A DNA stretch of 64,000 nt, taken from assembly GCF_000009625.1 (NCBI RefSeq), contig NC_002678.2, positions 3,256,001 through 3,320,000 of the forward strand. The letters are read 5' to 3'. The translations under genes and the position numbers were made by a program. The notes under the pieces were generated by a model that searched no databases, had not been told where the DNA came from, and was given only the letters and a program-made list of their open reading frames with translations. Positions 54,740 through 55,060 of the stretch are shown here, in pieces. Each line of letters starts with the position of its first letter. Within the stretch, counting starts at the first letter, position 1. Origin of the DNA: Mesorhizobium japonicum MAFF 303099 (GTDB lineage Bacteria > Pseudomonadota > Alphaproteobacteria > Rhizobiales > Rhizobiaceae).

Positions 54740-54830
54740 CGAAGATCCCAGGCTCATCCACGGTTGTAGCCGCAGGGGTGTCGGGCGACTTCGCCAAGCC
54801 TCGAATCGGATGGCCGTCCGGTTCGAGGCT
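54740..54830 (-). ncRNA. Candidate bridge-RNA region of element A
   Basis: IS110 elements encode a bridge RNA in the 5' non-coding end that pairs with target and donor DNA. Here, read on the minus strand, CCGTGGATGAGC (54752-54763) lies 74-85 bp upstream of the transposase start. A 12-bp hairpin GCCTCGAATCGG/CCGGTTCGAGGC (54798-54829) lies 120-151 bp upstream. Element B has the same two features at nearly the same distances. The ends of the RNA are not determined. Confidence 0.4.
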
Positions 54831-54939
54831 CAGTCGCTTCCATCGCACAAAGTCTCCTCCGTGCAGATACAAGGGGTGTTCCAGGGAACGCCTCACTCCG
54901 CTGGGACACCCCTTGTGTGTTTGGAATCATGCATAGTTA

Positions 54940-55060
54940 GGGGCGCCACGGACCAGGTGTTTGCCTGATCCGTGGCGGCGGTCGAGAGCCCGTCACCCCT
55001 CAGGTGCCGAAACCGTGGATGAGCTGGGGCCCGACCGCCTTCTTTGTGAACCCGAACAGT
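54940..55060 (+). ncRNA. Candidate bridge-RNA region of element B
   Basis: A 13-bp hairpin GCCACGGACCAGG/CCTGATCCGTGGC (54945-54976, one mismatch) lies 127-158 bp upstream of the transposase ATG, and CCGTGGATGAGC (55013-55024) lies 79-90 bp upstream. Further pairing occurs between CCCCTCA near 54995 and TGAGCTGGGG near 55020. The layout parallels element A despite little overall sequence identity, which supports a structured functional RNA. Confidence 0.45.

Follow-up and report, generated by a model that had tools for sequence, protein, structure and literature searches.

Predicted bridge RNAs in the left ends of two head-to-head IS110-group elements of Mesorhizobium japonicum

Two IS110-group insertion sequences, denoted here A and B, lie head to head in a stretch of 64,000 nucleotides (64 kb) of the Mesorhizobium japonicum MAFF 303099 genome, referred to below as the window, and the 5' ends of both almost certainly encode IS110-type bridge RNAs that guide insertion at CACCC[CT]CATCC (core in brackets), as judged from sequence comparisons. 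The anatomy of these ends, the matches of guides with target and with donor sequences, the covariation and the conservation of the fold are the observed part of this model.

Element A covers 1148 bp (53726..54873, minus strand) and element B 1149 bp (54912..56060, plus strand), both CT cores included in each case, with limits set by flank comparison. A encodes a recombinase of 311 residues (53743..54678, minus strand) in which the catalytic Ser is present, and B one of 314 residues (55103..56047, plus strand). Both proteins show the DEDD_Tnp_IS110 and Transposase_20 architecture, passing the Pfam cut-offs for PF01548 (DEDD RuvC-like) as well as PF02371 (Tnp), and both match the PDB IS621 recombinase by sequence; they are 36% identical to each other, and the closest named relatives of A are from Mesorhizobium. 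The non-coding left ends measure 195 bp (A) and 191 bp (B), and the right ends extend 17 and 13 bp beyond the stop codon, which corresponds to the IS110-group layout of a long left and a short right non-coding end. The IS1111-group layout was found in neither element, as the gene is preceded, not followed, by the long non-coding end and by the two guide loops. A is present in its own 7.6 Mb genome in four full copies, identical over 1148 bp, and B in two, of which the one outside the window (L014, G000:C1:3407805-3408951) has lost 10 bp close to the 3' terminus of its recombinase gene, so that the frame is shifted after about residue 306; the two B copies are otherwise identical.

In the left end of A, where all features are read on the minus strand, a 5' stem-loop with a 13-bp helix (54798..54829) is followed by the left target guide (LTG) ACACCCCT (54774..54781), which matches the left flank ..CACCC[CT], and by the right target guide (RTG) GGATGAG (54753..54759), which is complementary to [CT]CATCC in the right flank and covaries with the target. 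Next come the left donor guide (LDG) ATAGTCGCT (54711..54719), identical to the A right end ATAGTCG[CT], and the right donor guide (RDG), the region ACGCACAAGG (54688..54697), in which ACAAG is complementary to CTTGT, the first bases of the left end, and is kept in all 27 A-type relatives, once through a G-U pair. The left end of B, read on the plus strand, presents the same order: a 5' stem-loop (54945..54976) with compensatory changes among nine relatives, the LTG TCACCCCT (54993..55000), matching the left flank CACCC[CT], and the RTG GGATGAG (55017..55023), again complementary to [CT]CATCC on the right; in a relative with a changed guide the target is changed too. The LDG of B, ACAGTTGCA (55056..55064), contains the ACAGTTG of the right end ACAGTTG[CT] and has CA instead of CT at the core position, which counts against the model; in its RDG, CGCACACAAGG (55078..55088), CACACAAG complements the left end CTTGTGTG. 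The RDGs of both elements were read by eye. Read as RNA towards the transposase, the LTG CACCCCT is the top strand of the left half-site, and LTG and RTG, each taking in the CT core, jointly spell CACCC[CT]CATCC, the site of the four A and two B copies in the genome.

The preliminary description of this DNA had singled out a motif common to both 5' ends, CCGTGGATGAGC, and this is indeed present exactly at 54752-54763 (minus strand) and 55013-55024 (plus strand), in each case enclosing the RTG, with no third exact copy in the 64 kb window; matches with up to two mismatches number 12 in the 64 kb against 11.2 expected, that is, they are at chance level. The identical run common to A and B is really 14 nt long (AACCGTGGATGAGC). 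The distances given for the motif, 74-85 (A) and 79-90 (B) bp upstream of the start codon, are correct for the GTG at 54678 and the ATG at 55103, and the hairpins at 54798-54829 and 54945-54976 do lie 120-151 and 127-158 bp upstream. A TGG was said to follow the motif, which is true of B and not of A, where CTGG comes next. The proposed match of the motif to the target holds for GGATGAG, which complements it, and does not extend to CCGT, a part that we read as the 3' arm of a small hairpin between both guides. The interpretation of the motif as belonging to a bridge-RNA target loop is thus supported, the motif being the right half of the loop, with GGATGAG as the complement of CTCATCC. What had been overlooked is the left guide, CACCCCT, separated from the RTG by 14 nt (A) or 16 nt (B). 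Either 7-mer alone is unremarkable, being present in 1.6-2.6% of dinucleotide shuffles; when 50,000 shuffles were made of each end, CACCCCT was followed by GGATGAG within 8-40 nt in 3 of those of the A end and in 5 of those of the B end.

A conserved two-loop fold among homologues had been named as a check, and such a fold, with one loop for the target and one for the donor, is predicted in both families, its compensatory changes falling mainly in the 5' stem-loop and in the stem of the target loop. An alignment of 27 A-type ends has its 28 named pairs formed in 94.9% of cells, compared with 76.4% in shuffles and 47-49% after a one-column slide, with a bias in favour of the structure because it is largely the RNAalifold consensus of the very alignment scored. 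Two RNAalifold helices were left out of this count, one at columns 1-5/202-206 (CTTGT/ACAAG), expected from the RDG-donor complementarity, and one at columns 168-171/178-181, invariant and overlapping the LDG, and one apical pair was added. Changes on both sides affect 16 of the 28 pairs: 11 of 13 in the 5' stem-loop, four of seven in helices 2 and 3 below the target loop, and one of two in the donor loop, which is counted with these two pairs only; the apical helix is mostly invariant. Helix 4 is invariant, and the apical pair of the target loop (columns 107/123) is broken in 12 of the 27 sequences. The B-type fold, based on nine ends, shows changes on both sides in 15 of 32 pairs. Folding of the single sequences gave z values of -2.41 and -2.11, which is weak evidence, and a search of Rfam gave no bridge-RNA match. 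In these predicted structures, what A and B have in common is the layout (5' stem-loop, target loop, donor loop) more than the sequence.

The guides could be compared with the targets among A-type relatives of at least 51% amino acid identity, from Mesorhizobium, Rhizobium, Bradyrhizobium, Caulobacter, Methylobacterium, Acidobacteria and others, the element ends being defined by conserved end sequences, independently of the guides. Loci with no recognisable left end (such as L110 and L138) were excluded from the A-type rows, and 41 of the 49 distinct rows, in 20 guide classes, were used, eight being dropped for a missing flank or a gapped guide. At the non-core bases, the RTG agrees with the right target at 5/5 positions in 32 of the 41 sites, at 4/5 in eight and at 3/5 in one. 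The class-mean agreement is 4.18 of 6 on the left and 4.65 of 5 on the right; permutation of the guides among classes lowers these values to 2.58 and 2.90, and none of 20,000 permutations over these 41 A-type sites and 20 classes attained the observed agreement. Relatives with a different RTG have, for the most part, a target altered to match, and the RTGs and their targets include the pairs GGATGAG/CTCATCC, GGGAGAG/CTCTCCC, GGGTGAG/CTCACCC, AGGTGAG/CTCACCT and CGCTCAG/CTGAGCG. As evidence to the contrary, mismatches are frequent at the outer LTG positions, and the left flanks of L022, L023 and L024 are imperfect, that of L023 agreeing in only 2/6. The preliminary description had also asked whether homologues with the same motif insert into unrelated targets, and none was found: among A-type sites with the RTG GGATGAG and both flanks readable, ten of 11 are at CTCATCC and one at CTCATTC, and all seven B-type sites with that RTG are at CTCATCC, several of the A-type and B-type sites being copies within one genome.

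For B, searches for B-type proteins at order level (297 genomes, E 1e-90) found no genome besides its own, and at family level (394 genomes, E 1e-60) one besides its own, so that the covariation of B rests on genus relatives, plasmids and the copies in genome G134. In the latter, where the B-type RTG is AGGTGAG, ten of 12 copies are at CTCACCT and two at CTCATCT (a G-T wobble), with left flanks GCCCCT in 11 copies and ACCCCT in one. Two further B-type loci show one RTG-flank mismatch each by eye, namely L177 (GAATAAG at CTCATTC) and L178 (TGGGGAG at CTCCCCT). Some target classes were noted in passing. Seven A-type copies in one genome (G260; L082, L086, L088, L090-L093) have the RTG GGGTGAG, six of their right flanks being CTCACCC, and most of them are, by eye, inside another palindromic repeat family. 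Two Rhizobium A-type loci (L102, L103) and the Sinorhizobium B-type L177 apparently have a further target in common, CCCT/CTCATTCC.

It might be argued that the motif is instead a site for protein binding or translation control that both elements have retained from a common ancestor, and that its match to the target is coincidental. Its nearly identical position before the gene in A and B would agree with such a role, as would the AACCG part, which is largely conserved regardless of the target. Against this, GGATGAG varies with the target in relatives while the surrounding scaffold stays constant, and both halves plus the core are needed for the match. We regard such a site as very improbable, the guide-target covariation appearing largely to refute it. 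A further question is whether A and B have one guide through inheritance or through separate retargeting to one repeat. Inheritance is a serious possibility, if somewhat short of probable. Both families have deep members that carry GGATGAG as well (L083, L059, L060), and two-state parsimony on the GGATGAG/other split, with B-type RTGs read by eye, gave six changes, five of them forced by well-supported branches, a minimum that leaves room for an ancestral GGATGAG. On the other hand, guide turnover is fast, with at least 17 changes on a 42-row tree; GGGAGAG is the guide of the nearest other A clade, and GAATAAG that of L177, a B relative with 73% identity; and, beside recombinases just 36% identical, the remaining RNA of A and B is dissimilar. 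A third IS110 lineage, 41% identical to B (L065/L066), has by eye the RTG GGGAGAG and the target CCACCT/CTCTCCC, a second target class apparently in common with A relatives at 75% DNA identity.

The donor guides follow the element ends as well. The LDG equals the right end at 7/7 positions in 51 of 56 rows, across six LDG types, at 6/7 in four rows and at 5/7 in one; in this count the search patterns pre-select similar guides, the best of several candidate right ends was taken in some loci and a few loci were counted under both queries, and its meaningful part is that the varying letters change together. The right end of A also contains TTGACA (53741..53746, minus strand), overlapping the stop codon, and 25 of 27 A-type rows have TTGAC at the corresponding end. 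When the ends of A are joined as a circle, TTGACA is followed, after 17 nt, by TATCTG of the left end, and this arrangement may act as a promoter by analogy with IS621, whose RNA is transcribed from such a right-left junction promoter according to the excerpts of PMC11208160. For B, inspection of the right end by eye showed no clear -35 box.

The proposed mechanism can be outlined as follows. Each left end would encode a bridge RNA with a 5' stem-loop, then a target-binding loop and then a donor-binding loop; in the latter, LDG and RDG would pair with the right and left ends of the element itself, and the recombinase would exchange the circular element with CACCC[CT]CATCC, a site that each inverted half of the repeat contains. 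Transcription, RNA binding and guided recombination are the part of the bridge-RNA model that we infer. A and B would be directed to CACCCCTCATCC by their own guides, and a GGGAGAG/ACCACCT guide would address CCACCTCTCCC instead.

All six copies in the genome (four A, two B) are flanked as CACCCCT/element/CTCATCCG, and flank comparison defined the insertion site as CACCC[CT]CATCCG, with a CT core. A palindromic repeat located between genes, ..CGGATGAGGGGTG-spacer-CACCCCTCATCCG.., contains this site in each of its inverted halves; we take the repeat to be RIME-like, and L180 and L183 are intact examples of it; eight exact unoccupied 13-mers of the site are left in the genome, against none for the backwards pattern. 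In the window, an outer half of the palindrome ending in CGGATGAG precedes A (53675..53727, plus strand, outer limit approximate), in the arrangement seen in the intact L180 and L183; a 38-bp spacer (GGGTG...CACCC; 54874..54911, plus strand) separates A from B; and the other outer half, starting with CTCATCCG, follows B (56059..56110, plus strand, outer limit approximate). A occupies the left and B the right inverted half-site of a single palindromic repeat, which is alone sufficient to produce the head-to-head order. That the two form one compound unit moving together could be suspected from their adjacency and orientation; we consider this exceedingly unlikely, as the other three A copies and the other B copy in the genome are solitary, each in such a repeat, and each repeat half-site accounts for one insertion.

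Elements of this kind are known. It was reported in 2006 that IS110 elements insert in REPs and that two dissimilar ones can use one REP base (PMC1525189, in part), and in 2024 that bridge RNAs exist and that guides covary with targets (PMC11208160, in part). REP-inserted IS110s, bridge RNAs and retargeting having been reported already, the bridge RNAs of A and B are further examples of a known system. As described in excerpts of PMC11208160 and PMC11208158, the E. coli IS621 resembles A and B in its DEDD and Tnp recombinase, its long left end, the succession of 5' stem-loop, target loop and donor loop, the logic of LTG, RTG, LDG and RDG, the CT core and insertion in REP palindromes, and it resembles A in a right-end -35 box positioned for a circle promoter. 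In contrast to IS621, the guide and target of A and B are different (a Mesorhizobium palindromic repeat), the RTG match is 7 nt instead of 4, although other IS110s are reported to have longer RTGs, and B has Thr in place of Ser241. ISPpu9 and ISPpu10 of P. putida are likewise two not highly similar IS110s at exactly one REP position (PMC1525189, in part), whereas in the present case one copy of the repeat accommodates both elements, one in each inverted half, and the guides accounting for this were identified. Among rhizobial members of the IS110 family, ISRm19 of Sinorhizobium meliloti has four of four copies in REPs, palindromic repeats as for A and B (same source). NGRIS-19a of Sinorhizobium fredii NGR234 encodes a protein (P0049) 73% identical to B that also has Thr at the catalytic position. 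The seekRNAs of IS1111/IS110 elements follow the same principle, with natural retargeting in the IS1111-type ISEc11/ISXne4, but the RNA of IS1111 elements is in the right end and that of A and B in the left (PMC11187229, in part). The A-type relatives provide a natural retargeting series, with one scaffold, 20 guide classes and matching targets, which is useful for guide rules and for the use of short genomic repeats as targets.

The catalytic serine of the IS110 group is found in A and not in B, where the codon ACC (55808..55810, plus strand) encodes Thr236 in the place of IS621 Ser241, as aligned with 8wt6 and IS110 relatives; B is therefore filed as a variant and not as a standard IS110 member. 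In the excerpts of PMC11208158, S241 of IS621 forms a phosphoserine bond and its mutation abolished activity. Thr236 could accordingly mark a dead enzyme, the Thr B-type copies having been moved in trans by a Ser-type relative, and Ser-type relatives about 90% identical do exist in other genomes (P0002, L052). A single base change in a Ser AGC codon can yield several other residues. In spite of such third residues being within reach, only Thr (66) or Ser (54) is found at this position in the best 120 of 525 B homologues (E 1e-60, from 8000 scored candidates), and B plus these 120 retain nearly all DEDD residues (D in 117, with four gaps; E in 121; D in 120, with one R; D in 120, with one R). 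Moreover, genome G134, in an assembly scored as 11% contaminated, holds 12 Thr-type relatives of B (L187-L189, L191, L193, L195, L197-L202), of which 11 are identical and the twelfth has a single base changed, and its other B-like matches at E 1e-15 are just a 39%-identical Ser protein and a 148-residue Ser fragment of 38% identity. A dead enzyme moved in trans therefore seems rather unlikely to us. Given the recent spread in G134 with no close Ser helper found, and the lack of a third residue, Thr at the catalytic position is probably functional, as far as comparative evidence goes.

A quick tree with 131 rows requires at least 16 Ser/Thr changes, eight of them forced by well-supported branches. 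It seems likely that a large mobile IS110 subfamily including B uses Thr as the covalent nucleophile, with repeated replacement between Ser and Thr, and that the guides in it, like those in the subfamily of A, keep being altered to follow host palindromic repeats. The word threonine does not occur in the text of PMC11208158, S241T is absent from the 40 papers listed among 203 matches, and the open-access titles and abstract beginnings listed mention neither a threonine IS110 recombinase nor bridge RNAs of Mesorhizobium repeats. If the Thr variant is active, the phosphoserine step of IS110 elements would tolerate threonine in nature, and Thr/Ser pairs of about 90% identity, such as B and P0002, would then offer material for a direct test of the chemistry. 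One A-type protein, L112, has Thr at this position too, and the Ser-type B relative L052 has its frame shifted near the C-terminus.
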